NCBI GenBank assembly: GCA_025964325.1
Contig: JAOPZA010000112.1
Location: forward strand, 1 to 64,000
Source: Conexibacter sp.
GTDB taxonomy: Bacteria > Actinomycetota > Thermoleophilia > Solirubrobacterales > Solirubrobacteraceae
Length of the DNA stretch: 64,000 bases
Direction of reading: 5' to 3'
Below, piece after piece: positions 8,281 through 34,174 of the stretch. Within the stretch, counting starts at the first letter, position 1, and every line of letters begins with the position of its first letter. A model generated the notes under the pieces. The model was not told where the DNA came from. It worked only from the letters and a program-made list of their open reading frames with translations, and made no database searches. Position numbers and translations under genes: made by a program.

Positions 8281-8889
8281 TCACACCCCGTCGCGCACCG
8301 GCTGCGAGGGGACGTGGCCCGAAGGGCGGCTGACGCCGTCACGCTCCTTCGAAAGCAGCTCGATGAAGCGGGCCTCGTGCTGGACCTTGTCGTCGAGGAT
8401 CCGCGCGACCAGGGCGTACGTGCGGGTGTCGGTGCCGAAGGTGAGATCGGCGACGTCGCTCCACGCGTGGATGCCGGAGCGCTCGTGGCCGAGCAGGGCC
8501 TGGAGCACCGCCGCGGCCGTGGTGCCGGCGCCGTTCTGCTCGGAGAGCGGCCCGGCCCAGGCGACCTGCTCGCCGAGCGTGAAGTCCCCGACGTCGGTCG
8601 GGATCGCTCCGCCGAGCTCGTAGATGCGCGGCGCGATCAGCTCGAAGTGGGCGCGGTTGTTGAGGCGCGCCTCCTCGCACGCCGCCTGCTGCGTGTCGCT
8701 GCCGGTCAGCTGCGCGCGCAACCCGAGGTAGGCGAAGTACGCGACGAGCTCCGAGGCGGCGGCGCCGAGGAGCCGGTCGATCAGATCGGCGAGGTCGACG
8801 CCGCGGGCGACGATCCGCTCGACGCCGACTCGCTGCGTGAGATCGTCCGCCCGGACCCGAGCGACCGCTGGCTTCTGGAGGACCCGCAT
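8281..8889 (-). CDS. Ferritin-like (Dps-like) diiron protein
   Basis: A 202-residue four-helix-bundle protein of the ferritin-like superfamily, near Dps-like/bacterioferritin-type proteins. Candidate metal ligands are Glu47 (ASELVAYFAYL), Glu74 and His81 (EEARLNNRAHFELIAPRIYELGG), Glu136 (LLGHERSGIH) and Glu172 (VQHEARF). The ATG shares its A with the DUF1116-1 stop (TGATG), so the two are translationally coupled; GAAGGGAAG precedes it. It could store iron for the Rieske centres, protect against peroxide or act as a diiron oxidase; context does not decide. Confidence 0.75.
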   Translation of the reverse strand: MRVLQKPAVARVRADDLTQRVGVERIVARGVDLADLIDRLLGAAASELVAYFAYLGLRAQLTGSDTQQAACEEARLNNRAHFELIAPRIYELGGAIPTDVGDFTLGEQVAWAGPLSEQNGAGTTAAAVLQALLGHERSGIHAWSDVADLTFGTDTRTYALVARILDDKVQHEARFIELLSKERDGVSRPSGHVPSQPVRDGV

Positions 8890-10199
8890 CAGCGACTTCC
8901 CTTCAGTTGAAGTGACTCGTGGTGTCCGTATCGCGCCGTGTGAGCCTCGGCGGCGGCGGCGAAGCATGCGAGCGGCGTCCGCAGCACGCCAGCCCCGATC
9001 TGGCCTCCGCCTCTGCCGGCGACGCCGATGTCGAGCACCGGGGTGATGCCGGTCTCGACGACCCGATGGACGTCGATGCCGGTGGGGCAGCCGCGGAAGC
9101 CGAACAGCGGGATCCGGAAGTAGGGGTGCTCGCCGACGGTGATGTCGTACATCTCACGGTTCATCGCCGCCATCCGCTCGGGCGAGCCGCCCTGGTAGTC
9201 CTGCAATGTGAGCGCCGCCGCCTGCGCGAAGCCGCCGAGTCCCACCGTCTCCGCGAGGCAGCTCTCCCCTCCCATGAACTCGACGTCGTCGTCGGTGTGC
9301 CCGTCGAACAGCTTCGCGTCGACGCGCGGGATCGCGGCACGGAACCAGTCGCCGCCGAGGCCGCCGACGCGGATCGCGAAGTCGCCGCAGCTCAGGACCA
9401 TCGCCGTCACGACACTCGAGCCCTCGATCTCGCGCGCCGCGTCGGCGGTCGCCTTCGACGCCGCCATCGACAGCCGCAGGAAGAAGTAGTCGCTTGAGCT
9501 GAGATGCTCGAGCACGTCCCGCACGTCCCGAGGACGCCGCTCGTAGATCTCCAGCAGCCGCGGGAAGAGCTCGCGCGAGAACAGGACGGTGCCCGCCGTG
9601 TTGCGACTGTGCAGTTCGTCACCCATGTTCAGCGCCCGGCGCATGATCGGCTTGAGCTCGATCGGACCGCCGGCTCGGATCGCCTCCCCGAGGATCGGCC
9701 CGATCACGTCGCGGAGGTGATCGAGCGTGTCGGCGACGGTCTGGTTGTAGATGCCGTAGTTGAGCCGCTGCGGGTCGGGGCCCTCGAACAGGTTGCAGAA
9801 GGCATGCTCCCCGGTCGTCGCGTTCTCGACGACGAAGACGGGCATCGACGCCGTGTAGATGCCGGCGAGCGATCCGACGCACGCGTGGTCCTGGCAGACG
9901 CCGATCGAGATCGTGCCGGCCCGGACCTCGCGGTCGACGCCCTCGGGGTCGACCGCGAGTCCCTCGTACAGCGCGCCGCCGACGATCGCGTCTCTCTGTC
10001 CGCCGACGTACTCGTCCCACGTGCGCGGCGCGCCTGAGGTCAGGACCGTCGCAGGCGTCATGCCCGGCACGACCTCGATCGCCGGACGGACGTCGAGCAG
10101 CAGCGGCTCCGCGGCGCAGATGCGCTCGAACGCGGCGGCGTTGGCCTGGTTGGTCACGTTGCTCACCGTCGGCCTAGAAGAAGTTGAGGTAGCGGTCAC
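8889..10199 (-). CDS. DUF1116 protein 1 (AllG/YlbE-like)
   Basis: A 436-residue DUF1116-family protein. In E. coli the family member YlbE/AllG is a subunit of oxamate carbamoyltransferase together with AllF (FdrA) and AllH; neither partner is seen here. Landmarks are YVGGQRDAIVGGALYEG, RLNYGIYNQ, GDELHSRN, LGGFAQAAALTLQDYQGGSPERM and GRGGGQIGAG. The end of the preceding ligase overlaps its open frame; a GTG at 10166, 8 nt after the ligase stop, is an equally possible start and matches the N-terminus of copy 2 better. This is one of three DUF1116 genes in the window, each beside a glutamine-synthetase-like gene. Confidence 0.8.
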   Translation of the reverse strand: MTATSTSSRPTVSNVTNQANAAAFERICAAEPLLLDVRPAIEVVPGMTPATVLTSGAPRTWDEYVGGQRDAIVGGALYEGLAVDPEGVDREVRAGTISIGVCQDHACVGSLAGIYTASMPVFVVENATTGEHAFCNLFEGPDPQRLNYGIYNQTVADTLDHLRDVIGPILGEAIRAGGPIELKPIMRRALNMGDELHSRNTAGTVLFSRELFPRLLEIYERRPRDVRDVLEHLSSSDYFFLRLSMAASKATADAAREIEGSSVVTAMVLSCGDFAIRVGGLGGDWFRAAIPRVDAKLFDGHTDDDVEFMGGESCLAETVGLGGFAQAAALTLQDYQGGSPERMAAMNREMYDITVGEHPYFRIPLFGFRGCPTGIDVHRVVETGITPVLDIGVAGRGGGQIGAGVLRTPLACFAAAAEAHTARYGHHESLQLKGSR

Positions 10200-11601
10200 G
10201 GTCCCAATCCGACACGTGGCGCGTGTAGTCCGCCCACTCCGCCAGCTTGAGCTTGAGGAACGCGGCCTTCAGCTCGCGACCGAGGACCTGCTCGGAGAGC
10301 GGGTCGGCGTCGAACTGCGCGACGGCGTCGCCGAGCGTCTGGGGCAGCATCGCGATGTCGCTCGCGAGCCGCTCCTCGTCCGACATCTCGTAGAGGTTCT
10401 GGAGCGTCGGCTCGCCGGGATCGAGGCGGTTCTCGATGCCGTCGAGGGCGGCGCCGAGCGTCATCGCCAAGGCGAGGTAGATGTTGCAGCTGGGGTCCGT
10501 CGCGCGGTTCTCGATGCAGTTGCGTCCCTGCGGCAGCCGCAGCATCGCGGAGCGGTTGTTCGGGCCGTATGCCATCGCGACCGGCGCCCAGCTCATGTCG
10601 GCGCTCAGTCCGGCGATGCCGGGGAGGCTCCCGACGAAGCCGCGATAGGAGTTGACCGTCGGGCAGGCGGTCGCCGTGATCGCGGGCGCGTGCTTCAACT
10701 GGCCGGCGATGAACTGATACGCCAGCTCCGAGAGGCCGTACCCGCGCGGATCGTCCTCTGAGCGCATCAGGTTCCTCCCGTCCGCGTCGACCAGGCTCAT
10801 GTTGAAGTGCAGCCCCGAGCGGAAGGAGTCGTCGAACGGCTTCGGCATCATCGTCACGAACGCGTCCTCGGCGCGGGCCGCGTGCTTGAGAATCTCCTTC
10901 AGCAGGATCCAGCGGTCGGCGGTCCCGAGCGCGTCCGTGTAGCCGAAGTCGAACTCGTACTGCGAGCGCCCGCCCTCCTGCACGAGCGCGTCGGCTCCCC
11001 AGCCGAGCTCCTGCAGCGCCTCCGTCACGCGGCCGAGGAACGGCATCGCCGTCAGCACGACGTCGACGTCGTAGGCCCAGGTGGGGCCGCGATCGATCTT
11101 GCTGTACGGCACGATCGCGCCCGACTCGTCCTCCCGGTAGACGTAGATCTCGGGCTCGACGCCGACGAGCATCTCGAGGCCGAGCGCGCGCGCCCGCGCG
11201 ATCTGGCGCTTCAGCGCGGAGCGCGCGCAGACGGGGTAGCTGACGCCTCCGTTCCAGTACATGTCGCCCGCGAACCACGCCAGCGTCCGATCCCACGGGC
11301 AGACCACGACGGAGTCCATGTCGGGTCGCACCGACTGGTCCGGATCGGCCGGGCCGTAGTCGCCCATGCCGTCGATCGCGTGCACGCCGTAGAGCGGCGC
11401 GATCCCGCGGATCATCTTGTCGAAGTTGTCGATCGGCGTGACCTTCGCCTTCGAGCGACCGTGCGTGTCGACCCACGTCGACAGGCAGTACTTGACGCCC
11501 TGCTCGACGAGCCGCTGGCGGAGCGCCTGCGCCTCCTGCTCAAACTCCTCCGACCACCCGCTCTTGACCGGCGAGTAGCTCGACAGTACGACTTCAGTCA
11601 T
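10174..11601 (-). CDS. Glutamine-synthetase-like gamma-glutamyl ligase 1
   Basis: A 475-residue GS-fold ligase close to the type III/GlnT group, which includes gamma-glutamylmethylamide synthetase. The beta-grasp part has TWVDTHGRSKAK (42-53). The catalytic part keeps Glu149 and Glu151 (GVEPEIYV), Glu209 and Glu216 (QEGGRSQYEF, with the 7-residue spacing of GlnT types), His265 (SGLHFNMSL), CPTVNSYRG, NNRSAMLRLP and NCIENRATD. So it should make a gamma-glutamyl adduct of an amine using ATP; the amine is unknown. The start at 11601 is preceded by GAAAGAGA. It is followed directly by DUF1116-1. Confidence 0.85.
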   Translation of the reverse strand: MTEVVLSSYSPVKSGWSEEFEQEAQALRQRLVEQGVKYCLSTWVDTHGRSKAKVTPIDNFDKMIRGIAPLYGVHAIDGMGDYGPADPDQSVRPDMDSVVVCPWDRTLAWFAGDMYWNGGVSYPVCARSALKRQIARARALGLEMLVGVEPEIYVYREDESGAIVPYSKIDRGPTWAYDVDVVLTAMPFLGRVTEALQELGWGADALVQEGGRSQYEFDFGYTDALGTADRWILLKEILKHAARAEDAFVTMMPKPFDDSFRSGLHFNMSLVDADGRNLMRSEDDPRGYGLSELAYQFIAGQLKHAPAITATACPTVNSYRGFVGSLPGIAGLSADMSWAPVAMAYGPNNRSAMLRLPQGRNCIENRATDPSCNIYLALAMTLGAALDGIENRLDPGEPTLQNLYEMSDEERLASDIAMLPQTLGDAVAQFDADPLSEQVLGRELKAAFLKLKLAEWADYTRHVSDWDRDRYLNFF

Positions 11602-11685
11602 GCGGTTCTCTTTCGTCTCGACGACGACGGCGGGAGCGGCAGCCCACGCCGAGCTCATGGCGTCCTGGTGCGTCTGTGCAGCGAC

Positions 11686-12855
11686 CTACGTGATGCGCAG
11701 GAACCGCTCCGCGTTCTCGGAGAGGACCTTGCGTTCAACGGCGGCGGACGTCGTGCTCCACGAGAGCACGCCGCCGCGGGCGTCGGGGAAGTTGGTGTTC
11801 CCATAGGGGAAGTGAGACTGGTAGACGAGCGCGTCCTCACCCAGCAGCGTCATCACGCTCGCCGCGATCGCCTCGCCCTCGTACGGCTCGAGCCCGACGT
11901 AGATGCGTCCGTCGCGCGCATAGTCGAGCGGGTCGCACTTCAGCTCAGCGGCACGTCCCGGGAACTGGTGCGCCTGCCCGCGCAGCTGACACAGCCACGA
12001 CGGCAGCCACCCCGATCCGGCCCCGCCGAAGCCGACGCGCAGCGTCGGATACCGATCGAACAGGCCGCCGAAGACGAGCGACGCCAGCGCTCGCTGCGCA
12101 CTCCACTGGTGCGCGGCGGCCCGTGCCATCAGCGGGTTGCTCCACAGATCCCGGTGGCCGGGGAACGACGGCCACCCCTCGATGAACGCGTGGTGGAAGA
12201 GGGGCAGGCCGGCGTCCGTCATCTCGTTCCAGATCGGCTCGAGAGCGGGGGCGTCGAGCGGCATGCCCGCGGGCAGGCAGATCGCGAGCGCGGCGACGCA
12301 CGGCTCGATCGCGAGCAGTCGGATGTTCTCGGCCGACCAGGCGGGATCTCCGCCGTGCACGAGCAGCACCGCCTTGAGCCGACTGGCGTCCGCCTCGCAG
12401 TACGTCACGATGTAGCGGTTGTACGCCTCGATCAAGCCGACCGAGAGATCGCGCCCGACCTCCGTGCTCAGCCACGGAACCGGACCGGGACCGATCAGCT
12501 GCAGATCGATGCCGGCGCGGTCGAGCTGACGCAGCCGGCCGGTTGCGTTGTCGTGGAGGATCCCCTCCTCGACCGGCTGCTCGGGGGCCGTCTCCGCATC
12601 CTCGCCCCATGCGTCGCTCGCCGTCGCTACGCCGCCGTTCTCCTGCCGAGCGCGCAGTCCATGTCTCGCCGTCTCGAGCCGCAGCGAGGGATGGCCCCAG
12701 TCGCCGCGGTCCGCCCGCGGACGCTCGGTCAGGCGCAGGAAGGGCCGCAGCTCGTCCCAGCGTCCGCGGAAGTCGCCGCGGCCCTGCTCGTAGAGCAGCT
12801 CCATCGCCGGACGGACGTAGGAGTCGGTGTCGACGATGCGCAACGACGCGCTCAT
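11686..12855 (-). CDS. Amidohydrolase-2-fold protein 1, metal site altered
   Basis: A 389-residue protein of the amidohydrolase_2 (ACMSD/4-oxalomesaconate-hydratase-like) TIM-barrel family. The usual N-terminal metal motif (D-x-D-x-H) is IVDTDSYVRP, with Tyr where the His belongs. The usual C-terminal SD(Y/W)PH is YQSHFPYGN. GLPLFHHAF keeps a His in the middle of the barrel. So it is probably a non-classical or inactive member. The ATG overlaps the Rieske 1 stop as ATGA. The paralogue at 52080-53093 has comparable changes and also follows a Rieske gene, which argues for a conserved role rather than decay. Confidence 0.8.
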   Translation of the reverse strand: MSASLRIVDTDSYVRPAMELLYEQGRGDFRGRWDELRPFLRLTERPRADRGDWGHPSLRLETARHGLRARQENGGVATASDAWGEDAETAPEQPVEEGILHDNATGRLRQLDRAGIDLQLIGPGPVPWLSTEVGRDLSVGLIEAYNRYIVTYCEADASRLKAVLLVHGGDPAWSAENIRLLAIEPCVAALAICLPAGMPLDAPALEPIWNEMTDAGLPLFHHAFIEGWPSFPGHRDLWSNPLMARAAAHQWSAQRALASLVFGGLFDRYPTLRVGFGGAGSGWLPSWLCQLRGQAHQFPGRAAELKCDPLDYARDGRIYVGLEPYEGEAIAASVMTLLGEDALVYQSHFPYGNTNFPDARGGVLSWSTTSAAVERKVLSENAERFLRIT

Positions 12856-14132
12856 TCTGAGCTCGAAGCGCCGTTGGGAGCGAGCTTCGCGTCGCCGTTC
12901 GCCTTCCCGTGCCCGTTGATCTCGCCGTAGCCGAGCGCGGGCGCGTAGACCCGGTCGATCAGCCACTCGTGGAACATCCAGGCGCCGAGCTCGTGCTCGC
13001 AGAAGCGGCCGGCGCCGCCGACGCGCGTGCGCAGCCCCTTGTGCTGGGTCTCGGCGATCCCGTTGTCCTCGGAGATGAACCCCTCGCTGTTGCGGGCGTA
13101 CATCTCGACCTTCGGGACGACGTCCGGGTCGCCGTCGAAGTACCGCTCGGCGATCTCCTTGTCGACCATCAGGCCCATCACGAACCGCGTCTTCTCGGCG
13201 GAGTCCGGAAAGAAGGCGAACCAGACGGTGGCGTCGAGCGAGTTCAAGGCGCCGAACAACGGGAAGGCAAGCCAGATCGGCATCCCCTGGTACTCGATCG
13301 GCACCTTCGTGAGCAGATCGGGGTTGTAGGGGAACTCCGGCTCGCCGGTGTCACCGATGCAGATGCCGGGGAACTGGCCGACGCCCACCTGCCACGGCTG
13401 ATCGGTGAGTCCCTCGAAGAACGTCCATCCCTTCATCGGCGTGAACACCTGGAACGTCTCACCGTGAACCCACGGGAGGTGATACTCCTCGTGGTAGTTC
13501 TCGAGATACGCCTTCCAGTTGCAGTTGATCTCGAACTCCCACTGGTGGGTCGTCACCTGCCCACCCATCCCGTACAGGCTCATCCCCCACTTCTCCATGT
13601 CGCTCACCTGCGGAGCGAAGGGCTGAGCGTCCTTGTCGAAGTTGACGAGGATGAAGCCCTGCCAGAGCTCCACGCCGAGCGAGTGCAGCGGGAAGTCCTC
13701 CTTCTTGAAGTCGACCGTCTGGCGGAACTCCGGCGCTGCCCGCAGCTTTCCGTCCAGGCCATACATCCAGCCGTGATACGGGCACCGGAAGGACTTCGTG
13801 TTGCCGCATCCCTCGACCAGTTGGCTCCCGCGGTGGCGGCAGTAGTTGACGTGCGCGCGGATCTCTCCGTCGCCGTCGCGCACCACGATCACCGACTCGC
13901 CGGCGATCTCGCGCGTGAGGAAGTCGCCGGAGTTCGGGACGTTCTCCAACCGCCCGACGCAGAGCCACTCTCTCATGAAGACCTCCTTCACCTCGAGCTC
14001 GAAGATCTCGGGCGAGGTGAAGAAGTGCGGCGGGAAGTTGAGCGCCTCCAAGGTCGGCTTCCTGAACTCTCGGAGGTCGTCTTCGGTTACGAGCTTCCGA
14101 AGTACGTCTGCGTCAGCGACGAGATCAGCCAT
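12852..14132 (-). CDS. Rieske non-haem iron oxygenase 1, alpha-type
   Basis: A 426-residue Rieske oxygenase catalytic subunit. The [2Fe-2S] ligands are Cys98, His100, Cys117 and His120 (NYCRHRGS...CPYHGWMYG). The mononuclear iron site is ENYHEEYHLPWVH with His218 and His223; the residue that bridges the two centres is Glu215 rather than the common Asp, as in carnitine monooxygenase CntA. No beta subunit gene is present in the window. The start is preceded by AAAAGGAC. It heads the eight-gene module A operon; electrons could come from the reductase at 22168-23289 and the ferredoxin at 49678-49938. Confidence 0.9.
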   Translation of the reverse strand: MADLVADADVLRKLVTEDDLREFRKPTLEALNFPPHFFTSPEIFELEVKEVFMREWLCVGRLENVPNSGDFLTREIAGESVIVVRDGDGEIRAHVNYCRHRGSQLVEGCGNTKSFRCPYHGWMYGLDGKLRAAPEFRQTVDFKKEDFPLHSLGVELWQGFILVNFDKDAQPFAPQVSDMEKWGMSLYGMGGQVTTHQWEFEINCNWKAYLENYHEEYHLPWVHGETFQVFTPMKGWTFFEGLTDQPWQVGVGQFPGICIGDTGEPEFPYNPDLLTKVPIEYQGMPIWLAFPLFGALNSLDATVWFAFFPDSAEKTRFVMGLMVDKEIAERYFDGDPDVVPKVEMYARNSEGFISEDNGIAETQHKGLRTRVGGAGRFCEHELGAWMFHEWLIDRVYAPALGYGEINGHGKANGDAKLAPNGASSSE

Positions 14133-14171
14133 GAGCAGCGTCCTTTTCTCTTGAACGAGCGGGACAAGGGC

Positions 14172-14187
14172 GCCTGCACGAGCAGGC
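14172..14187. other. Hairpin GCCTGC-ACGA-GCAGGC in the Rieske 1 leader
   Basis: A perfect 6-4-6 inverted repeat in the roughly 170-nt untranslated leader of the module A operon. No riboswitch fold was recognised. It may be a leader stem or a protein site. Confidence 0.35.
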
Positions 14188-14305
14188 ACAACCGGATTCC
14201 GATAGCCGGCGGCGGCCTCCTTGGGACGCGAGCCGACCGAGACGTGTCGTCGTCGTAGCGCCGGGACACAGTCATCTCTCCAGAAAGGTGCACCGTGCCT
14301 TGGTG

Positions 14306-14340
14306 CGTCAACCTTATAGAGCGTGCACGCAGGATGTCAA
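14306..14340 (-). promoter_or_regulatory. Promoter of the module A operon
   Basis: On the minus strand TTGACA (14340-14335) and TATAAG (14318-14313) are 16 nt apart. Over 35 nt around these boxes about 25 bases match the promoter of ABC importer 1 without gaps. The rest of the 315-nt gap between the divergent genes holds short dyads but no gene that I can support. Confidence 0.65.
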
Positions 14341-14367
14341 GGCAAATCCTTGCAGAACGCCGAACAT

Positions 14368-14379
14368 GGTTAGTACACT
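14368..14379 (+). promoter_or_regulatory. Operator-like GGTTAGTACACT upstream of AOC-like 1
   Basis: Eleven of 12 bases match GGTTAGTGCACT, the minus-strand sequence directly downstream of the ABC importer 1 -10 box. It lies about 70 nt before the AOC-like 1 start. The same regulator may bind both. Confidence 0.45.
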
Positions 14380-14447
14380 CACGCCGTCACACCGGTTGCC
14401 ACAGCCGAGTCGCTGGCTCGGCGTCCACGAGAGAGGTTGGTGATGTC

Positions 14448-14906
14448 GTGCGCGTACGAGTCTCAGGAGGTGGAACGGCGAACTGGTCGACGCCGATCCG
14501 CGTTGACGAGAACACCTGGAAGGCCAACTACGAGACCTTCCTGCTGCACCGGTACACCTTCGACGACGGGCGTCACATCCACGTGCGGACCCGCTACGCC
14601 GGCATCGACGACATCTCGGCGGACGGCACGGTCTACGCCGGCATCGGGAACTTCGAGGGCATGGACGACGACGGCGACTGGAACCACGGTCGCATCGACT
14701 GGATCATCCGCGACGACTACCAGGCCGCGGTCTTCAACTTCCTCTACGGGACCGGCAAGTGGGAGGGCGCCAGCGGCGCGATCGAGGCGCCCGTCTGGGC
14801 GGAGCCCGAGAAGCACCGCCAGGTGATGCCGCCGCAGGGCCCGATCCGGTTCTGGGGCTACATCGAGGGCGAGGGCGAGCTGACGCTGCCGAAGTTCGAC
14901 TCCTGA
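14448..14906 (+). CDS. AOC-like beta-barrel protein 1
   Basis: A 152-residue protein of a family with five members in this window. The predicted fold is all-beta, resembling allene-oxide-cyclase/DUF3224-type barrels because of the late GTGKWEGASG motif (101-110). Family landmarks are GGGTANW near the start, RYxF(D)DGRxxHV, RYAGIDDISADG and a C-terminal W/F-G-x-I-E-G-E-G-E-L. No catalytic residues can be named. I chose the GTG at 14448 because it aligns with the ATG of AOC-like 2; GAGAGG lies 11 nt upstream. It is divergent from the Rieske 1 operon. Possible roles are a cyclase, an isomerase or a binding protein. Confidence 0.7.
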   Translation: MRVRVSGGGTANWSTPIRVDENTWKANYETFLLHRYTFDDGRHIHVRTRYAGIDDISADGTVYAGIGNFEGMDDDGDWNHGRIDWIIRDDYQAAVFNFLYGTGKWEGASGAIEAPVWAEPEKHRQVMPPQGPIRFWGYIEGEGELTLPKFDS

Positions 14907-14975: not shown

Positions 14976-15656
14976 ATGCAGATCCTCGTCCTCCAACACG
15001 AGCGCAGCACGCCCGCCGGCCTCTTCGACGACTGGGCGCGCGACCGCGGACACACGCTCGCGCGGCTCGAGGTCCCCGAGCTCGGCGCCTGGCCGGATCC
15101 CCGCGGCGCGGATGCGGTGCTGACGCTCGGATCGGACTGCTCGGTGCACGCGTCGCACGAGGGCTGGATCGCCGAGGAGATCGCCTTCCTGAGGGAGGCG
15201 CACGACGCCGACGTCCCGATCCTCGGGATCTGCTTCGGCGGGCAGGCGCTGTCGAAGGCGCTCGGCGGCGAGGTCAGCCGCGCGCCCCGGGTCGAGCTGG
15301 GCTGGCAGGCGATGCCGACCGTCGATGCCGCGCTGATCCCACCGGGCCCGTGGTTCCGCTGGCACGAGGACGTCTTCACCGTGCCGCCCGCGGCACGCGA
15401 GCTCGTCCGCGTGGGCGACATGCCGCTCGCGTTCGCGGCGCGCCGGAGCGTCGGGCTGCAGTTCCACCCGGAGGTCGGGGCTGAGCTGGTGGCGGAGTGG
15501 ATCGAGGGCGGCCGTCGACAGCTCGCCGAGCTGGCGATCGACCCGGACGCGCTCGGTGAGCAGATGGCGCGCGCGGCGCGCGGCGCGCGGGAGCGTGCCT
15601 ACGACCTGTTCGACCGCGTCGCGCACCACTGGTCCCGGGCGACGCCCGACACGTAG
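14976..15656 (+). CDS. Class I glutamine amidotransferase-like hydrolase
   Basis: A 226-residue class I GATase domain protein without a synthetase partner domain. The triad is visible: Cys86 in GICFGG, His164 and Glu166 in LQFHPEV. Stand-alone proteins of this kind include gamma-glutamyl-amide hydrolases: PuuD for putrescine, and AtdA2-type proteins in aniline degradation, where they act beside a GS-like ligase. With three such ligases here, cleaving or transferring gamma-glutamyl adducts is a reasonable role, though not proven. The ribosome-binding site is weak. It converges on the oxidoreductase gene at 15686. Confidence 0.8.
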   Translation: MQILVLQHERSTPAGLFDDWARDRGHTLARLEVPELGAWPDPRGADAVLTLGSDCSVHASHEGWIAEEIAFLREAHDADVPILGICFGGQALSKALGGEVSRAPRVELGWQAMPTVDAALIPPGPWFRWHEDVFTVPPAARELVRVGDMPLAFAARRSVGLQFHPEVGAELVAEWIEGGRRQLAELAIDPDALGEQMARAARGARERAYDLFDRVAHHWSRATPDT

Positions 15657-15685: not shown

Positions 15686-18600
15686 TCAGACCTCGGCGGG
15701 CGCGCGCTCGCCCGACTCGAGCTGCTCGACCAGCTCCCCCGTGCGCGCGCGGAAGCGCGCGACGTTGGCGAGCTTGATCTGCTCGTAGCCGCGCACGACG
15801 TCGGGCTGCTCGGCGATCTCGCGGATCAGGTCGACGGTGCCGCCCTCGAGCCGCAGCAGCGCGCGTTGCACGAGCTCGCGGTACTCCTCGACCAGCTCGC
15901 GCTCGACGCGGCGCACCTCGGCGTAGCCGAACGGGTCGAGCCGCGTCCCGCGCAGGCCCCGCGCCGCGTACAGCGCCCGCAGGCCCGGCCTGACCCAGCT
16001 GCCGAGCTTCAGCTTGCGGTTCATGCCCAGCGCGCGCAGCAGCGGCGGGTGCAGCATGATCTGCACCTTCGCGTCGGCGCCGAACGCGCTCTCGAGGCGC
16101 GCGCGCTCGATCCCGTCGAGGTGCAGGCGCGCGACCTCGTACTCGTCCTTGTAGGCCATCAGCTTGTAGAGGCCGCGGGCGTAGGCCTCGGCCACCGGCA
16201 GCTCGTGCGAGCCGCCGATGCGCTCACGCTCGATCGAGGCGACGCGCATCACGTCGTCGGCGTAGCGCTGCGCGTACGCGACGCTCTGGAACGCGATCAG
16301 CTCCGGGATGCGCACCTCCAGCAGCCGCCGCAGCTCGCCGTCGGCGCCGCTGGCCTCCAGCACCGCGAGCGCCCGCCGGTCGACCGCCGGCGCGAGCGCC
16401 GCCGGCGCCGCCCCCGCCAGCGCCCGCTCGACGGCGTCGAGGTCGAGCGCCGCGACCCGGCCCCAGCGAAACGCGGCGAGGTTGACGTCGACGGCGGCGC
16501 CGTTGAGCTCGATCGCCCGCTCGATCGCCGCCGCGGTGAGCGGCAGGCAGCCGTGCTGGTAGGCCGCGCCGACGATCAGCATGTTCGCCGGCATGTGGTC
16601 GCCGAAGAGGCGCTCGGCCAGGTCGCGGGCGTCGAGATACAGGTTCTCGCCTGCCTTCGTCGCGGCCTCGATGCGCCTCAGGGCGATCCGCTCGGACGGC
16701 ATCGTCACCCGCGTGTCGGTCACCATCGCCGCCGTCGCCACGGCGGCCGTGTTGACGATCGCGATCGTGCGGGACGGGTCGGCCGCCGTCAGCGTCGGCT
16801 TCGCCGCGGCGCCGAGGAGGTCGAGTCCGAGCAGCACGTCGGCCGAGCCCGCGGCCGCGCGCAGCTGGCCGCTGACGGGGGTCGCGGCGATGCGCACGTC
16901 GGACAGGACGGGCCCGCCCTTCTGCGCCAGCCCCGTCTGCTCGAGCCCGGCGGCGAAACGCCCGTCGAGGTGGGCGGCCATCTGCAGGATCTGCGAGATC
17001 GTCACGACACCGGTGCCGCCGATCCCGGGCATCCGCAGAAGCACGTCGTCGCCGACGCGGCGCGCGGGCTCCGGCGGGGTCAGCGGAAGCGCCGGGGCGG
17101 TGCGCGCCTTCGCATCGCCGCTGCCGGCCTTCGGCGTGACCATCACGAACGAGGGGCAGTCGCCCTTCAGGCACGACATGTCGGAGTTGCACGAGGCCTG
17201 ATGGATGTGCGTCTTGCGGCCGAACTCCGTCTCGACCGGCAGCACCGACAGGCAGGTCGACTGCTCGCCGCAGTCGCCGCAGCCCTCGCAGACGCGCTCG
17301 TTGATCCACACCCGCTCGGCCACGCTCTCCAGCTCGCCGCGCTTGCGCAGCCGGCGCTTCTCGGTCGCGCAGCGGTCGTCGTGCACGAGCACCGTCACGC
17401 CGGGCGTGTCGCGCAGCTCGTGCTGGACCGCCTCGCTCTCGTCGCGATGGCGGACGGTCGCGATCGGGTCGAGCGTGACGCCCGCGTAGGCCTGCGGGTC
17501 GGGCGTCGTCACGACGATCTTCTGGACGCCCTCGAGCGCGAGCCAGCGGGTCAGCGACGGAACGTCGAGGCGTCCCTCGGGGCGCTGACCCCCGGTCATC
17601 GCGACCGCGTCATTGTAGAGCAGCTTGTAGGTCATGTTCACTCTCGCCGCGACCGCTGCGCGGATCGCCAGCGAGCCGGAGTGGTGGAACGTGCCGTCGC
17701 CGAGGTTCTGTGCGAAGTGCGCGTCGTCGGTGAAGTGCGAGAGGCCGAACCACTGCGCGCCCTCGCCGCCCATCTGCGGCATGCCGAGCAGTCTGCCGCG
17801 CCCGCCGGTGTCGAGCGCGACCATCACGTGGCAGCCGATCCCGACGCCGACGAGCTGGTCGTCGTCGGCCTTCGTCGAGCTGCTGTGCGGGCAGCCGGAG
17901 CAGAAGTACGGCGTGCGCTGGGGCAGCGCCGACGGCGCCTCGCCGGCCGCGACACGCGCGACGATCAGCTCCAGCCGCTCGACGGCGCCCTCCGGCAGGC
18001 GGTCCTCGGGGATCACGACACGCAGCGCGTGCGCCACGTCGTCGGCGACGACCGTGCCGCTGACCGGGATCAGCGGCCGCCCCTCGAGGTCCTCCTGGCC
18101 GAGCACGGCCGGCGCATCCGGCTGTCGGTAGAGCGCGTCCTTGATCTGCATCTCGACGAACGGCAGCTTGTCCTCGACGACGAGGACCGTCTCGACGTCG
18201 CCGAGCAGGCGGCGGACCTCCCCGCGCTCCAGCGGCCACGGCATCCCCAGCTTGACGAGACGCAGGCCCGCCTTCTGGCGCGCGTCGGCGTCGAGTCCGA
18301 GGTCCTCGAGCGCGCGCAGCACCGACTGGTACGCGGTCCCCGCTGCGACCACGGCGATGCGCGCCCGGGCGGGCTCGGACGTCACGCGGTTGAGCTGCGT
18401 GAGCCGCGCGTAGTCGTGGGCGCGCGTCAGCCGCGCGGTCATCAGGTCCTGCTCGGCGGCGAGGTTCGACGGCGGCAGCATGATCGGCGGCTCGAACCGG
18501 TCGCGTGGCGGCAGCTCGGGGATCTGGTCGAGCAGCCGCCCGACGTCGACGGTGGCGGACGCGTCGGCGACGTCGGCGACGATCTTCATCCCGGTCCACA

Positions 18601-19201
18601 GGCCCGAGGCCCGCGACAGCGCGACGGAGTGCAGTCCGAACGTCAGCAGCTCCTCGACGGTCCCGGGCGCCAGCAGCGGGATCAGCAGGCTGCGGCACAT
18701 CGGCTCGCACGAGCTGGGCAGCGTCGAGGACTTGCTCTCCGGGTCGTCGCCGATCCAGGCGACGGCGCCGCCGAGCGGCGCCGTGCCGCTGACGTTGCCG
18801 TGGCGCAGCGCGTCGGCGGCGCGGTCGAAGCCGGGGTTCTTGCCGTACCAGAAGCCGACCACGCCGTCACGGCGGCGCCGCTCCAGCTGGCCCAGCAGCT
18901 GCGTGCCGGCGACCGCGGTCGCCGCCAGCTCCTCGTTGAGTCCCGGGTGGAAGACGATCCCCTCCGGCTCGAGCAGCTTGTGCGCGCGCTGCATCTCGCG
19001 GTCGACGCCGCCCAGCGGCGAGCCCTGGTAGCCGCTTACGAAGACGCCGGTGTCGTGACCGCGCCGCCGGTCGAGCCGGCGTTGCTCGAGCGTCAGGCGC
19101 ACGAGCGCCTGGACGCCGGAGATCAGCACGCGGCCGGACTCGGCGACGTACTTGTCGTCGAGCGCGACGTGCGGTCTGACGACGTCGAGGGTGGCACTCA
19201 T
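15686..19201 (-). CDS. Indolepyruvate ferredoxin oxidoreductase family, fused 1171-residue enzyme
   Basis: A fused 2-oxoacid:ferredoxin oxidoreductase that decarboxylates a 2-oxo acid to an acyl-CoA with TPP and passes electrons to ferredoxin. Visible in order: N-terminal pyrimidine-binding domain (GYQGSPLGG), CSGCPHSS (about 437), TPP-binding GVGIGCHVMVALDTG (about 459), a Cys-rich Fe-S segment CEGCGDCGEQSTC...CNSDMSCLKGDC (about 637-680), a gamma domain starting MPGIGGTGVVTISQIL (about 724), and a DUF6537-like C-terminus around 1017. The ATG has AAGGAG 10 nt upstream and overlaps the acyl-CoA dehydrogenase stop (ATGA). Probable role: catabolism of aromatic or branched 2-oxo acids. Confidence 0.9.
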   Translation of the reverse strand: MSATLDVVRPHVALDDKYVAESGRVLISGVQALVRLTLEQRRLDRRRGHDTGVFVSGYQGSPLGGVDREMQRAHKLLEPEGIVFHPGLNEELAATAVAGTQLLGQLERRRRDGVVGFWYGKNPGFDRAADALRHGNVSGTAPLGGAVAWIGDDPESKSSTLPSSCEPMCRSLLIPLLAPGTVEELLTFGLHSVALSRASGLWTGMKIVADVADASATVDVGRLLDQIPELPPRDRFEPPIMLPPSNLAAEQDLMTARLTRAHDYARLTQLNRVTSEPARARIAVVAAGTAYQSVLRALEDLGLDADARQKAGLRLVKLGMPWPLERGEVRRLLGDVETVLVVEDKLPFVEMQIKDALYRQPDAPAVLGQEDLEGRPLIPVSGTVVADDVAHALRVVIPEDRLPEGAVERLELIVARVAAGEAPSALPQRTPYFCSGCPHSSSTKADDDQLVGVGIGCHVMVALDTGGRGRLLGMPQMGGEGAQWFGLSHFTDDAHFAQNLGDGTFHHSGSLAIRAAVAARVNMTYKLLYNDAVAMTGGQRPEGRLDVPSLTRWLALEGVQKIVVTTPDPQAYAGVTLDPIATVRHRDESEAVQHELRDTPGVTVLVHDDRCATEKRRLRKRGELESVAERVWINERVCEGCGDCGEQSTCLSVLPVETEFGRKTHIHQASCNSDMSCLKGDCPSFVMVTPKAGSGDAKARTAPALPLTPPEPARRVGDDVLLRMPGIGGTGVVTISQILQMAAHLDGRFAAGLEQTGLAQKGGPVLSDVRIAATPVSGQLRAAAGSADVLLGLDLLGAAAKPTLTAADPSRTIAIVNTAAVATAAMVTDTRVTMPSERIALRRIEAATKAGENLYLDARDLAERLFGDHMPANMLIVGAAYQHGCLPLTAAAIERAIELNGAAVDVNLAAFRWGRVAALDLDAVERALAGAAPAALAPAVDRRALAVLEASGADGELRRLLEVRIPELIAFQSVAYAQRYADDVMRVASIERERIGGSHELPVAEAYARGLYKLMAYKDEYEVARLHLDGIERARLESAFGADAKVQIMLHPPLLRALGMNRKLKLGSWVRPGLRALYAARGLRGTRLDPFGYAEVRRVERELVEEYRELVQRALLRLEGGTVDLIREIAEQPDVVRGYEQIKLANVARFRARTGELVEQLESGERAPAEV

Positions 19202-20349
19202 CGGGCACGCACTCCTTCTTCGGATCGGGTCGAGGCGGCGTCGCCGAGCAGCGCGCGCGAGATCACGATCCGCTGGATCTCGCTCGTGCCCTCGTAGATC
19301 TCGGTCACCTTCGCGTCGCGGAAGTACCGCTCGGCGGGAGAGTCCTTCGTGTAGCCGTAGCCGCCGAGCACCTGGATCGCCTCGCCGGTCCAGTGACGTG
19401 CGACGCGCGAGGCGAACAGCTTCGCCTGAGCGCCTTCGACCGTGTGCGGCTTGCCGGCGTCCTTGAGCTGCGCGGCGCGCCACACGAGGGCGCGCCCCGC
19501 CTCGATCTCGGTCTGCATGTCGGCGAGCCGGTGCGCGATCGCCTGGAAGCCGGCGATCGGCCGTCCGAAGGCGTTGCGCTCCTTCGCGTAGCTCGAGGCG
19601 AGGTCGAGCGCGGCCTGCGCGATCCCGACCGACTGCGCCGCGATGCCGATGCGGCCGCCGTCGAGCGTCGAGAGCGCGATCCGCATGCCGGCGCCCGGCG
19701 GCCCGAGCCGCTCGGCCGGCGTGTCCTCGAACAGCAGGTCGGCGGTCGAGGACGAATGCTGCCCGAGCTTCTCCTCCTCGCGCGTGACGGCGAAGCCGGA
19801 GGCGCCGCGGCGCACGAGGAAGCCGGAGATGCGCTCCTCCTCGCGGGCGAAGACGTTGAACGTGTGCGCGTAGGACCCGTTCGTGATCCACTGCTTCGTG
19901 CCGCTCAGCGCGACCGCGTCGCCGTCGGCGAGGGCGCGCGTGCGCATCGCGCCGGCGTCGGATCCGGAGCCGGCCTCCGTCAACGCGAACGCGGCCAGCT
20001 CCTCGCCGCGCGCGAGCGGCGGGATCAGCCGCTCGACCTGCTCGGCAGTCCCGTGCGCGAGGATCGGCAGCTGACCGGCGCCGATGTGGACGGCGACGGT
20101 CGTGCCGAGTCCGGCGTCGGCGCGCGAGAGCTCCTCGAGCGCGAGGCAGTAGCTGAGGTAGTCGCTGCCGCCGCCACCGTGCGCCGAGGGGATGCAGATG
20201 CCCAGCAGCCCCAGCTCGCCGAGCTGGCGCAGGGTCTCGGCGGGAAAGCGGTGCTCGCGATCCCACGTCGCCGCATGCGGCGCGATCAGCTCGTCGGCGA
20301 CCTGCCGGGCCATCTGACGGATGGCATGTTGCTCGTCCGTGAGGGTCAT
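19198..20349 (-). CDS. Acyl-CoA dehydrogenase
   Basis: A 383-residue FAD-dependent acyl-CoA dehydrogenase that makes a 2-enoyl-CoA and gives electrons to ETF. The C-terminal block GGYGYTKDSPAERYFRDAKVTEIYEGTSEIQR contains the catalytic Glu (IYEGT). The N-terminal part has FALTEAGSGSDAG and WITNGSYA. AGGAGAG precedes the ATG at 20349; the longer open frame upstream has no RBS. It is coupled to the 2-oxoacid oxidoreductase, so it would act one step after acyl-CoA formation. Divergent from the Lrp-type regulator. Confidence 0.9.
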   Translation of the reverse strand: MTLTDEQHAIRQMARQVADELIAPHAATWDREHRFPAETLRQLGELGLLGICIPSAHGGGGSDYLSYCLALEELSRADAGLGTTVAVHIGAGQLPILAHGTAEQVERLIPPLARGEELAAFALTEAGSGSDAGAMRTRALADGDAVALSGTKQWITNGSYAHTFNVFAREEERISGFLVRRGASGFAVTREEEKLGQHSSSTADLLFEDTPAERLGPPGAGMRIALSTLDGGRIGIAAQSVGIAQAALDLASSYAKERNAFGRPIAGFQAIAHRLADMQTEIEAGRALVWRAAQLKDAGKPHTVEGAQAKLFASRVARHWTGEAIQVLGGYGYTKDSPAERYFRDAKVTEIYEGTSEIQRIVISRALLGDAASTRSEEGVRAR

Positions 20350-20513
20350 CTCTCTCCTGGGCACGGTTGACGCCCGACTGGGAGCAAATCCGGATCCGGA
20401 CGCGGTTGCAACAATGATGTGCGATTCGTGCGTGCCTGGCATGAATCAAGCGCGTAAGCCACTCTCGTCGCAGACTTCTGGCGCCAGGCGGCGTCAGCCC
20501 GTAGGCTCACGCG

Positions 20514-22167: not shown

Positions 22168-23289
22168 TCAGGCGTCGAAGTCGAGCACGACGCGCCTGCT
22201 CGCCGGGTGCGCCTGACACGTCAGCGCGTAGCCGTCGGCGAGCTCCTCCGAGTCCAGCCCCGACGACCGTCTCATCCGGACCTCGCCCTCGACGACGAGC
22301 GCGCGGCAGGTCGAGCAGACGCCGTCTCTGCACGAGTACGGCGCCTCCGGCCGGTCGGGCAGGACCGCGTCGAGGATGCTCGGCCCGTTGGAGCTGAGCT
22401 CGAGCTCGGTGCGTCTTCCGTCGAGCACGACGGTGACGTCGCACGTGATCTCCGGCGCGTTCGGGTCGTCGCCGTCGTCCGCGTCGGAGACGGCGAACAG
22501 CTCGTGGTGGATGCGCCGCGGGCTGACGCTCAGCTCGGTCAGCGCGGCCCTCGCGCCGTTGACCAGGCCCTCGGGACCGCACAGCAGCCACTCGTGGAAT
22601 CTCCCGGCCGGCATCGTCGCGGTGAACAGCTCCCGCAGCGCCGCCTCGTCCAGCCGGCCAGCCGGCCGCCCGTCGGGCGACGGCTCGCGCGAGTAGACGT
22701 GGTGGATCGTGAGGCGGTCGCCATGACGCTCGCGCAGCGCGTCCAGCTCCGCTCCGAGCATCACGCTCGACGGGCGCCGGTTGACGTTGAGCAGCGTCAC
22801 GCGGCTGCGGCGCTCGACGGCGAGCACGGTCGCGATGTTCGACAGGATCGGCGTGATCCCGCTGCCACCCGCGACCGCGCCGTAGCGCTTGTCGTGCGCG
22901 GGGTTGACGTGGGCCGAGAAGCGGCCGTTCGGCGTCATCACGCCGAGCACCTGCCCGACTCGCAGCTCGGTTGTCGCCCACGTCGAGAAGCGCCCGCCCT
23001 CGACCCGCTTGACCGCCACGCGCAGCGGACCGGTGCCGGCCGGCGCGCAGATCGAGTAGGAGCGTCGCAGCTCCTCCTCACCGTCTCTGTGGATCAGGGT
23101 GACGTGCTGGCCCTGCGTGAACCAGTACTCGTTGCGCAACTCGTCGGGGACGTCGAAGGTGAGGCAGACGGCGTCGTCGGTCAGCCACCGCACGTCGGCG
23201 ACGCGCAGCTCGTGCACGCGAGGCGCGCGCCGCCCGCTCGCGGGTCGAGGGGGCGTCGCGCCTTGGAGGCGTCTGGGAAGTGGGGGCAC
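22168..23289 (-). CDS. Oxygenase reductase, FNR type with C-terminal [2Fe-2S] (GbcB/PaaE-like)
   Basis: An electron-transfer protein of about 373 residues. An FAD domain (RRSYSICAPAG, GRFSTWA) and an NAD(P) domain (VAGGSGITPILSNI, LLCGPEGLV) are followed by a plant-type [2Fe-2S] ferredoxin domain with Cys320, Cys325, Cys328 and Cys358. This is the architecture of GbcB/CntB/PaaE reductases that feed Rieske or diiron oxygenases. It is the only such reductase in the window, so it may serve all four Rieske proteins. The GTG at 23289 has no clear RBS and the true start may lie up to 25 codons downstream. Confidence 0.85.
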   Translation of the reverse strand: MPPLPRRLQGATPPRPASGRRAPRVHELRVADVRWLTDDAVCLTFDVPDELRNEYWFTQGQHVTLIHRDGEEELRRSYSICAPAGTGPLRVAVKRVEGGRFSTWATTELRVGQVLGVMTPNGRFSAHVNPAHDKRYGAVAGGSGITPILSNIATVLAVERRSRVTLLNVNRRPSSVMLGAELDALRERHGDRLTIHHVYSREPSPDGRPAGRLDEAALRELFTATMPAGRFHEWLLCGPEGLVNGARAALTELSVSPRRIHHELFAVSDADDGDDPNAPEITCDVTVVLDGRRTELELSSNGPSILDAVLPDRPEAPYSCRDGVCSTCRALVVEGEVRMRRSSGLDSEELADGYALTCQAHPASRRVVLDFDA

Positions 23290-23328: not shown

Positions 23329-23784
23329 CTAGCGGAGGTGCGGCACGTCCAGCTCGCCCTCCCCGTCGATGAACCCGTAGTTGCGGAACGCCTCCGTCGG
23401 CGGCATCGGCATCTCGATCTCCTGCGGCTGGTCCCACACCGGCGCTCTGATGACGCCGCTGCAACCCTCCCACTTGCCGGTGCCGCCGAGGTGGTGGTAG
23501 TTGCCGCCCTGATAGCCGGGGACGACCTCCCAGTCGACGCGGCCCCACAGCGCGTCGCCGTCCTCGTCCTGACCCTCGACGTGACCGAAGCCGCCGCTGA
23601 CCGCGCCGTCGGCGTTGACGTCGTCGACACCGGCGTATCTGACCTTGACGTGGACGGCGCGGCCGTTCTCGAACTCGTAGCGCGTGGCGATGTAGGCCCG
23701 GTAGGTCGCCCGCCACTGCCCGGCTCCGATCTGGACCGGCTTGTCCCAGTCCGCGGTGCCTCCGCCGATCATTCGAACTCTCAT
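23329..23784 (-). CDS. AOC-like beta-barrel protein 2
   Basis: A 151-residue member of the AOC-like family, closest to copy 1 (IGGGTADWDKP, RYAGVDDVNADGAVSGGFGHVEGQDEDGD, GGTGKWEGCSGVI, NYGFIDGEGELDVP). GGGAG-type RBS (GAGGGAG) lies just before the ATG at 23784. It leads the operon that continues with the oxygenase reductase 39 nt downstream, which ties the family to Rieske chemistry. Its promoter region carries the 18-bp dyad at 23863-23880. Confidence 0.7.
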   Translation of the reverse strand: MRVRMIGGGTADWDKPVQIGAGQWRATYRAYIATRYEFENGRAVHVKVRYAGVDDVNADGAVSGGFGHVEGQDEDGDALWGRVDWEVVPGYQGGNYHHLGGTGKWEGCSGVIRAPVWDQPQEIEMPMPPTEAFRNYGFIDGEGELDVPHLR

Positions 23785-23862
23785 CGGTCTCCCTCGCTCG
23801 TGTGGACGGCGCCGGGCGGACCCCGGTGCACGTAGCTCACACCAGAGGCGGCGGCCCCCGCT

Positions 23863-23880
23863 ATTGGCCGTTAGGCCCAT
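23863..23880. promoter_or_regulatory. 18-bp dyad ATTGGCC-GTTA-GGCCCAT (site 1)
   Basis: A 7-4-7 inverted repeat with one mismatch, about 80 nt upstream of AOC-like 2 and directly downstream of the LuxR 1 gene. It is one of seven related sites in the window; proposed LuxR-type activator site. Confidence 0.6.
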
Positions 23881-23912
23881 CTTGTGCGATGCGCTGCGCG
23901 CCTCGCCGGCGG

Positions 23913-24917
23913 CTACGCGCTGCTCTGGCCCGCGTGGCGCGGGAGCAGGAGGCCTTCGACGACGGCTCTGCCGACGGCGGCGGCGCGGGAGGCGACGCCG
24001 AGCTTCTCGAGTATGTGCTCGACGTGGGCGCGGACGGTGCGGGTCGTGACCCAGAGCTGTGCGGCGATCTCGCTGTTCGAGGCCCCGTCGACGAGGCTCG
24101 TGAGCACTTCCAGCTCGCGTCTGGTGAGCCCGTAGGGGCTCTCCAGCTCGCGGTAGCCGAGCACGGCGACGCCGTCGCCGCAGCGGAACGCGCGGCAGCC
24201 GTACCAGCCGCCCTCCGCGCGCGGCCACAGGAAGGCGACGCTGTTGCGTCTGCCACTCAGCACGTGCTCGACCATCTGCCGCGCCGGCGCGCTGGCGTCG
24301 ACCAGCGCGGGCGCCGGCGCGCCGCGCAGCTGGACGAGCGTCCCGCCTTTCACGAGCGCGACGGCGTTGTAGGCGTCGCCGAGCGTCGAGGCGAGCACGT
24401 GCGCGGACTGCAGCGGGTCGACCATGTTGGCGAGCGCCTCGGAGAGGTGGCCGATCAGCGCGCAGGCGTCGTCCGAGGGCGACGCCTCCTCCGCCCACGA
24501 GAGCATCACGAAGCCGGCGTCGCGCCCGTCCGGGGTGATCAGCGCGCTCAGCAGGCCCTCGTAGAGCCCCGCCTGACGACCGGCCATGATCCCCTGCAGC
24601 GACATCGGGTCGATCGGCAGGTCGCGCTCGCGCACCGGCCAACCGGTCCGCGGCAGGCCGAAGGGCTCGATGCACTCGGCGTACCACTCGGGGCCGACGA
24701 GATAGTCGGCGAACGCGTCGGGGTAGCCGCGCGTGACGAGGGCACGCGGCTCACCGGTCGCGGGATCGACCGACGAGACGATCCCGGCGTCGAAGGGGAA
24801 CACCAGCCGCAGCTGGTCGAGGACCTCCTCGGTACGGTCGCGAACGGGGGCGCCCGACGCCGCGATCCCTGCGATGCGGGACATCACGTCGAGCCAATTC
24901 GGCGACCGTAGACTCAC
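23913..24917 (-). CDS. LuxR-type regulator 1 with GAF-like sensor
   Basis: A 334-residue regulator. Residues about 1-250 form a GAF-like/sensor region (QLRLVFPFDAGIVSSVDPATG, GRDAGFVMLSW); the C-terminal LuxR/FixJ HTH is LTRRELEVLTSLVDGASNSEIAAQLWVTTRTVRAHVEHILEKLGVASRA. The GTG at 24917 has GTGGAG 6 nt upstream and matches the length of LuxR 3; an internal ATG (MSRIAG) is possible. Two paralogues lie at 46-48 kb. It follows ABC importer 2 and precedes AOC-like 2. The ligand is probably a pathway compound. Confidence 0.85.
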   Translation of the reverse strand: MSLRSPNWLDVMSRIAGIAASGAPVRDRTEEVLDQLRLVFPFDAGIVSSVDPATGEPRALVTRGYPDAFADYLVGPEWYAECIEPFGLPRTGWPVRERDLPIDPMSLQGIMAGRQAGLYEGLLSALITPDGRDAGFVMLSWAEEASPSDDACALIGHLSEALANMVDPLQSAHVLASTLGDAYNAVALVKGGTLVQLRGAPAPALVDASAPARQMVEHVLSGRRNSVAFLWPRAEGGWYGCRAFRCGDGVAVLGYRELESPYGLTRRELEVLTSLVDGASNSEIAAQLWVTTRTVRAHVEHILEKLGVASRAAAVGRAVVEGLLLPRHAGQSSA

Positions 24918-31469: not shown

Positions 31470-31577
31470 CTGTGTCAATTCCGTTTCGGATCGGTCGTTC
31501 AGCACGCGGGATCGGGGGCTCGCCGCTCCGGCGTCCCGCCGTCCTGCGTGCAGGTGCGCAGCGTGAGCGGCCCGGGC

Positions 31578-32867: not shown

Positions 32868-32931
32868 GTCGCTTCCCTCCTCGAGGTGGCTCGGTCGAAC
32901 CGATCCTCCTCCCAGGCGACCGGCAGCCGCC

Positions 32932-32949
32932 ATTGGCGCATCGGCCAAT
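32932..32949. promoter_or_regulatory. 18-bp dyad ATTGGCG-CATC-GGCCAAT (site 2)
   Basis: A 7-4-7 inverted repeat with one mismatch, 65 nt upstream of the Rieske 2 start. Member of the seven-site family. Confidence 0.65.
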
Positions 32950-33007
32950 CTTTCCCGTCGGCACGGGTGCATGGATCGACCAGCCGGAGTGGGCCCGCGC
33001 GAGCGAT

Positions 33008-33025
33008 ATCGGTCAAGAGGCCAAT
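33008..33025. promoter_or_regulatory. 18-bp dyad ATCGGTC-AAGA-GGCCAAT (site 3)
   Basis: A 7-4-7 inverted repeat with two mismatches, 62 nt upstream of the alcohol dehydrogenase start. It runs into TTGCGC, which could be a -35 box on the plus strand. With site 2 it gives each divergent gene its own dyad. Confidence 0.6.
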
Positions 33026-33086
33026 TGCGCTGGCACCCGCGCACACGCGAGGCTCGTCCACGACACCGTCTGTCTATGGAGGGAAC

Positions 33087-34112: not shown

Positions 34113-34162
34113 GCCGTGCTTTCGGGCCTCCCGACCCGGGCGTGTCCGGGCCGGGGCGGCCC

Positions 34163-34168
34163 TATATT
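34163..34168 (+). promoter_or_regulatory. -10 box TATATT of the TetR gene
   Basis: TATATT ends 6 nt before the GTG at 34175, so the transcript is probably leaderless. No clear -35 is seen. Confidence 0.45.
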
Positions 34169-34174
34169 GATGCT

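Follow-up and report, generated by a model that had tools for sequence, protein, structure and literature searches.

A clade of AllG-like DUF1116 proteins associated with glutamine synthetase-fold ligases points to an undescribed step in bacterial amine breakdown

The 64,000-nucleotide stretch of Conexibacter sp. DNA analysed here (the window; positions 1–64,000 of contig JAOPZA010000112.1, GenBank assembly GCA_025964325.1) carries three genes of the DUF1116 (AllG) family, each next to a gene for a ligase of the glutamine synthetase (GS) fold, with all six genes on the minus strand. In pair 1, the gene for ligase G1 (10174–11658; PF00120, E = 3e-88) overlaps by 26 bp the gene for the 436-aa DUF1116 protein D1 (8889–10199; PF06545, E = 1.3e-69). 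In pair 2, G2 (30090–31505; PF00120) is followed by the 424-aa D2 (28810–30084; PF06545) after a gap of 5 bp if D2 begins at its ATG codon, while an earlier upstream start would make the two genes overlap. Pair 3 has the opposite order, D3 (57539–58837; PF06545, E = 9e-69) lying 50 bp upstream of G3 (56052–57488, start ATG at 57488; PF00120). A profile search of the 4.34-Mb assembly found PF06545 matches at 9261–9911, 29176–29835 and 57899–58543 and no others; each had an E-value below 1e-68 and covered profile positions 1–215 (3–215 in D3). An earlier note on this DNA had described three DUF1116 copies, all beside a GS-like ligase, twice with the ligase first and once reversed, and this is indeed the arrangement of the only DUF1116 genes in the assembly. 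The tight overlap that it gave for two of the pairs stands for pair 1, whereas for pair 2 it depends on the upstream start.

D1 shares 57% and D3 54% identity with D2, and the three ligases are only 37–43% identical to one another. The pairs are therefore not fresh duplicates, and a recent duplication was rejected as the origin of the repeated arrangement. Of 132 alignment columns that are at least 90% conserved in the wider clade described below, D1 retains 131 and D3 retains 125 (range among the D proteins, 125–131); by these comparisons, the pairs are old and under constraint. Since the genome has about six GS-III-like genes (E < 1e-70) among some 4,000 genes, we estimate the probability of an accidental pairing in all three cases at about 1e-7. 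Chance is further excluded by the divergence of the pairs and by the control loci considered next.

In a tree of 116 DUF1116 proteins, D1–D3 grouped in one long-stemmed clade that excludes the AllG proteins encoded in AllFGH loci. A scan of about 85,000 genomes yielded 76 loci with 81 genes of this clade. A ligase of the diagnostic type was located within 600 bp of 39 of these genes and within 10 kb of another 7; 19 genes had only another type of GS nearby, and 16 had none in the flanking sequence, many of them being on cut contigs. Where at least 5 kb was available on both sides, 46 of 52 clade genes had a GS gene within 5 kb and 6 had none. After removal of relatives with more than 75% identity, a GS-family gene was found within 5 kb in 25 of 28 clade loci (adjacent in 17), compared with none of the 28 control loci with other DUF1116 genes (Fisher p = 1.2e-12). 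The neighbourhood statistics that the earlier note had proposed thus bear out the association within the clade but not for DUF1116 as a whole, and a pairing typical of the entire family was rejected. As the locus survey was ranked by similarity and might be biased, a second set was drawn evenly from one class: 9 of its 385 genomes carry the clade and 9 of the 11 clade genes have a ligase within 1.3 kb, although several of the contigs are also in the first set.

The 39 adjacent pairs comprise 25 on the same strand with the ligase first, 6 on the same strand with DUF1116 first and 8 on opposite strands, the spacing of same-strand pairs ranging from −35 to +143 bp. The suggestion that the link survives rearrangement therefore holds well beyond the Conexibacter genome. 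A Mantel test on the distance matrices of adjacent partners gave r = 0.45 (p = 2e-4), which is weak support for co-evolution because the value is not corrected for shared species history. No DUF1116–ligase fusion was noticed among the loci, although no systematic search for one was made. In the reverse direction the association is weaker: an even draw of 396 genomes from the phylum of the window contained eight diagnostic ligases in five genomes, three of which have no clade DUF1116. Loci of the Defluviicoccus type, in turn, contain the clade protein without a GS. Thus, DUF1116 proteins of this clade nearly always have a GS nearby but the ligase is not always accompanied by DUF1116, and the term 'obligately paired', used in the earlier note, is too strong.

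The clade is tightly conserved (mean column identity of 62% over 50 sequences) and is separated by model scores, which are about 570 bits or more for its members and 415 bits or less for other proteins. About 23 positions are conserved both in AllG from AllFGH loci and in the clade but with different residues, among them (AllG residue first, D2 numbering) H41T, P54G, P97S, V132R, R134N, N185S, H228Y, N232R, G261C, D302E and N380D. A conserved core, which includes R56, E66, G180, D181, H184, R186, W275, S303, E307 and Q390, is common to both. The AlphaFold model of D2 (pLDDT, the predicted local distance difference test score, 96) superimposes on the solved DUF1116 protein 3clq with a Z-score of 60 over 410 residues. 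Comparison of the model with the PDB gave no clear relative beyond 3clq, the next matches, with Z-scores of about 3 over short stretches, being without significance. The clade is rare and scattered, being found in 2 of the 396 genomes from the phylum of the window and in 9 of the 385 from the evenly drawn class; its members come from Actinomycetota, Alpha- and Gammaproteobacteria, Chloroflexota and from metagenome-assembled genomes of a gemmatimonadete and a halobacterial archaeon. Among six genomes reached through clade loci, three (G483, G486 and G487) hold extra DUF1116 genes that score about 360–415 bits, as ordinary AllG does, and a fourth (G485) has three extra genes at 274–382 bits. In these organisms, the clade is therefore not simply their AllG.

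AllFGH is the oxamic transcarbamylase of Escherichia coli, in which AllG corresponds to YlbE (PMC11326118). The genome of the window has no match to AllH (PF11392/DUF2877) and only weak partial matches to the AllF (FdrA) model, of 42 bits or less, and profiles built from authentic neighbours found neither protein in the 76 clade loci; the AllH profile was less clean than the AllF profile, a few of its seeds having included an extra upstream reading frame. The absence of AllF and AllH noted earlier is thereby borne out, both for the genome and for the clade, and hidden versions of these partners were rejected on the same grounds. The clade thus resembles AllG in its Pfam family, fold and conserved core, but differs in lacking AllF and AllH, in its separate branch and switched positions, and in having a GS-fold ligase as partner. 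Given the missing AllF and AllH and the switched conserved residues, its members should not be named oxamate carbamoyltransferase subunits.

A further group of DUF1116 proteins (loci L062–L072, from the family to which the window belongs) occurs without AllF, AllH or GS, so the DUF1116 fold can work without any of them. The conserved neighbours of this group are a GntR/FCD regulator, an amidase, an isochorismatase-type hydrolase and an unknown 275-aa protein. With regard to ordinary AllFGH systems, two loci (L089:7278–10373 and L090:8612–11728) encode AllF and AllG together as a single open frame of more than 1,000 aa, and this natural fusion supports a contact between the two subunits. In addition, the two subunits have a segment in common: roughly the final 50 positions of the FdrA model for AllF match AllG proteins in their N-terminal part (e.g. 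G041:C13:108585–108737).

The partner ligases belong to the neighbourhood of type III GS and gamma-glutamylmethylamide synthetase (GmaS); the nearest solved structures are the glutamate–methylamine ligase 9qur, closest to G2, and RhGmaS (7cql). Most partners, G1–G3 included, form one clade that is near GmaS yet separate from it (support 0.855) and is marked, in RhGmaS numbering, by S175, D188 and N237 as opposed to Q/A175, N188 and H237 in GmaS. N237 is present in all 48 partner ligases and D188 and N237 in all three ligases of the window, with exceptions at position 175 in G1 (Ala) and G3 (Asn). The TIGR03105 (type III) scores of G1, G2 and G3 (411.7, 468.9 and 363.9 bits) are all below the cut-off of 469.6, whereas the genome's own GmaS-type ligase, encoded just outside the window (C34:68437–69753), scores 583 bits. 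G2 is 36–37% identical to that enzyme and to RhGmaS.

The residues described in RhGmaS include the Mg ligands, Arg312, Glu186, the amine-activating Asp177 and the glutamate-binding Gly231 and Arg288 (PMC7948447). Like GmaS, the partner ligases keep the residues for Mg and the ATP phosphates, and most also keep those for glutamate and for amine activation; G2 has all of the residues listed. In G1 and G3, unlike GmaS, the glutamate site is rewired (D177V, G231R and R288G), and because of Val177, Arg231 and Gly288 these two enzymes probably hold another acid or bind glutamate differently. The swapped Arg/Gly pair together with the loss of Asp177 defines a small subgroup that also contains the ligases L095:10209–11636 and L101:8106–9605, and this subgroup may use another acid.

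The common thread among the neighbours of the pairs is amine catabolism, largely via glutamylation. Pair 1 adjoins an amidohydrolase_2 gene (11686–12966, minus strand; PF04909), near which is a Rieske oxygenase (12852–14189, minus; PF00355/PF00848) whose nearest solved structure is carnitine monooxygenase. A FAD/2Fe-2S reductase (22168–23289, minus) is the likely electron donor for the Rieske oxygenases. An open reading frame that adjoins pair 2 (31578–34397, minus) contains a Rieske oxygenase in its C-terminal part and is 56–59% identical to Rieske genes of GS–DUF1116 loci in Geodermatophilus and Frankiales. Near pair 3 are an NCS1 permease of the cytosine/purine/allantoin family (49940–51514, minus; PF02133), another Rieske oxygenase (53128–54456, minus) and, upstream of D3, a formyltetrahydrofolate deformylase-like PurU (59047–59952, minus; ACT and Formyl_trans_N domains) and a SoxB-like flavoprotein of N-methylglutamate or sarcosine oxidation (59978–61189, minus). 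The last two are part of an N-methylglutamate pathway at and past the right end of the window (L055, C34:60001–76761, overlapping the window at 60001–64000), with PurU, SoxA/SoxB-like proteins, GXGXG and glutamine amidotransferase (GATase) subunits and a PucR-type regulator; MgsA/MgsB-like genes and the gene of the GmaS-type ligase lie past the window edge. The Rieske enzymes close to the pairs are similar to monooxygenases of carnitine and glycine betaine.

In other genomes, 12 of 41 ligase loci contain ureohydrolases similar to metformin hydrolase. Tandem ureohydrolases resembling metformin and dimethylguanidine hydrolases lie near clade DUF1116 genes at L099:19021–21190, L100:798–3113, L109:2–1944, L111:1256–3407 and L145:19121–21215. 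Dimethylamine is a product of both metformin hydrolase and the enzyme from which it presumably arose, dimethylguanidine hydrolase (PMC11399263). Further neighbours include amino-acid permeases, FMN (flavin mononucleotide) reductase and TetR. In Mycobacterium, Nocardioides and Gordonia, the clade is found with two GS-like genes of another type, a PuuD-like gamma-glutamyl hydrolase, short-chain dehydrogenases/reductases (SDRs), a flavin monooxygenase and glutaminase. A conserved actinobacterial cluster (L150, L159, L160, L161, L143, L156 and L132) combines DUF1116, two GS-like ligases, the PuuD-like hydrolase, the flavin monooxygenase, several SDRs, a permease and glutaminase. Taken together, the neighbours suggest that the amines broken down are N-alkyl or guanidino compounds.

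We propose, with a probability of roughly two in five, that the ligase makes a gamma-glutamyl-type amide on which DUF1116 acts as a separate enzyme, the substrates and the DUF1116 reaction being those that we infer from the genes. Each pair would be a two-gene catabolic module. The ligase would phosphorylate the gamma-carboxylate of glutamate (G2) or of a related acid (G1 and G3) and couple the activated acid to an amine; the Rieske oxygenases or ureohydrolases encoded nearby would have freed this amine from an N-alkylated or guanidino compound. DUF1116, a relative of AllG that stands alone after the loss of AllF and AllH and whose active site has been remodelled, would then cleave or transfer at the C–N bond of the amide. 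This proposal builds on features that are directly supported, namely the association, the clade, the loss of AllF and AllH, the residue switches and the intact catalytic residues in most partner ligases. A separate enzyme is preferred over a subunit because of the opposite-strand pairs, the use of two GS types, the GS-less members and the DUF1116 group that has neither AllF, AllH nor GS. In mycobacteria, Nocardioides and Gordonia, the GS that accompanies the clade is of a different type, which suggests that the tie is to gamma-glutamylation chemistry and not to a single protein surface. Of the two intermediates suggested in the earlier note, a carbamoyl one is disfavoured by the missing AllF and AllH and the changed AllG positions; a gamma-glutamyl one is plausible for G2, but G1 and G3 lack residues with which RhGmaS binds glutamate.

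The proposed division of labour has parallels in known systems. The aniline and 1-naphthylamine systems (AtdA1–A5 and NpaA1–A5) unite a GS-like ligase, a Rieske oxygenase and a glutamine amidotransferase-like (GAT-like) enzyme that hydrolyses the glutamylated amine (PMC11335346). The window likewise clusters GS-like ligases with Rieske oxygenases and a reductase, but has DUF1116 beside the ligase and Rieske oxygenases of an N-dealkylating-like type in place of the GAT-like hydrolase and two-subunit dioxygenase; the class-I GATase gene of the window (14976–15656) does not adjoin a ligase. In the Puu pathway, which proceeds through gamma-glutamylputrescine (PuuA and PuuD), the resemblance is to the mycobacterial-type loci with their two GS-like genes and PuuD-like hydrolase. 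DUF1116 is not known to be part of the Puu pathway. On our proposal, DUF1116 would fill the slot of the GAT-like and PuuD-like gamma-glutamyl hydrolases in the aniline and putrescine systems.

Several observations weigh against this proposal. Oxamate production in E. coli required allF, allG and allH together (PMC11326118), whereas the proposal would have DUF1116 act alone. The fold comparison offered no other relative to lend a mechanism. A PuuD-like hydrolase is already present in clusters of the mycobacterial type, so that DUF1116 cannot simply take its place there. Finally, some clade members have no GS gene nearby, and G1 and G3, judging from their altered sites, may not use glutamate.

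Among the alternatives, the two proteins might form a stable complex in which the ligase makes an acyl phosphate and DUF1116 binds and activates a weakly nucleophilic nitrogen (of an amide, urea or guanidine), a role that AllG may have for oxamate in AllFGH. A complex would fit the many loci in which the genes overlap or almost touch, and also the correlated distance matrices. It would further fit the chemistry, since carbamoyl phosphate, like gamma-glutamyl phosphate, is an acyl phosphate, and the absence from G1 and G3 of the Asp with which RhGmaS deprotonates the amine. We nevertheless consider such a complex unlikely, given the opposite strands in 8 of 39 adjacent pairs, the co-occurrence with a different GS type several genes apart, the existence of each partner without the other and the contribution of shared ancestry to the Mantel signal. 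More doubtful still is its extension to a new type of two-component enzyme, with a GS-fold protein making the acyl phosphate and an AllG-like partner supplying and activating a poor nitrogen nucleophile, so that acyl phosphates in general, carbamoyl phosphate in AllFGH as well as gamma-glutamyl phosphate here, would have the AllG fold as their acceptor module.

DUF1116 could also act before the ligase, releasing from an N-carbamoyl, amide or guanidino compound the amine that is then glutamylated. AllFGH does cleave an N-carbamoyl bond, although AllF, which that enzyme requires, is absent here; the loci contain NCS1 permeases and guanidine-type ureohydrolases, and the latter persist in two GS-less clade loci (L111 and L145). 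By itself this order of events would not account for a link to the ligase specifically, and we rate it, too, as improbable. A lower likelihood is assigned to the absence of any functional dependence, with both genes merely carried together in horizontally spreading islands for nitrogen scavenging. The window is itself an island with repeated Rieske, ATP-binding cassette (ABC) transporter and LuxR genes, and the rare, scattered distribution of the clade fits such spread, but adjacency in 17 of 28 non-redundant loci, in differing orders and with otherwise varying neighbours, and the lack of a GS in all 28 control loci do not. It is very improbable that DUF1116 here belongs to an oxamate carbamoyltransferase whose other subunits are missing or went unrecognised, despite the shared family, fold and core residues, in view of the absence of AllF and AllH from 76 loci and of AllH from the genome, the more than 20 switched AllG positions and the additional genes scoring like ordinary AllG in clade-bearing genomes.

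DUF1116 was linked to a reaction only in 2024, and then solely as one subunit of a three-part enzyme. We found no description of the GS-linked clade in the literature searched, which was mainly open-access; the passages on DUF1116 consulted there do not mention a GS partner, and AllFGH is the sole biochemical role found there. A Pfam-based annotation would label the clade 'oxamate carbamoyltransferase subunit AllG', probably wrongly. The GS-paired clade points to an undescribed two-protein step in amine breakdown in unrelated bacteria and one archaeon, and the pairing provides a concrete handle on the role of the unusual DUF1116 fold. For bacteria of soil and water, it also suggests a route by which N-alkyl or guanidino amines are handled, and some of the loci lie beside metformin-hydrolase-like ureohydrolases.

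Some minor features of the window and of the loci may be mentioned. A family of small proteins without a Pfam match has five copies in the window (14295–14906, 23329–24687, 44200–44787, 48574–49041 and 49082–49573); LuxR-type regulators are encoded close to them, and the loci of Geodermatophilus and Frankiales contain relatives. A large fused gene similar to indolepyruvate ferredoxin oxidoreductase (15686–20449; POR and DUF6537) separates pair 1 from pair 2, and loci L095–L097 have an unassigned gene of similar size (1260 aa). Three public records titled Bifidobacterium breve (L095, L101 and L165; CAMCVN010000023.1, CAMDBT010000008.1 and CAMAWO010000048.1) look mislabelled; the genes of L095 are the same as those on contig C23 of genome G053, which is placed in the window's own family.

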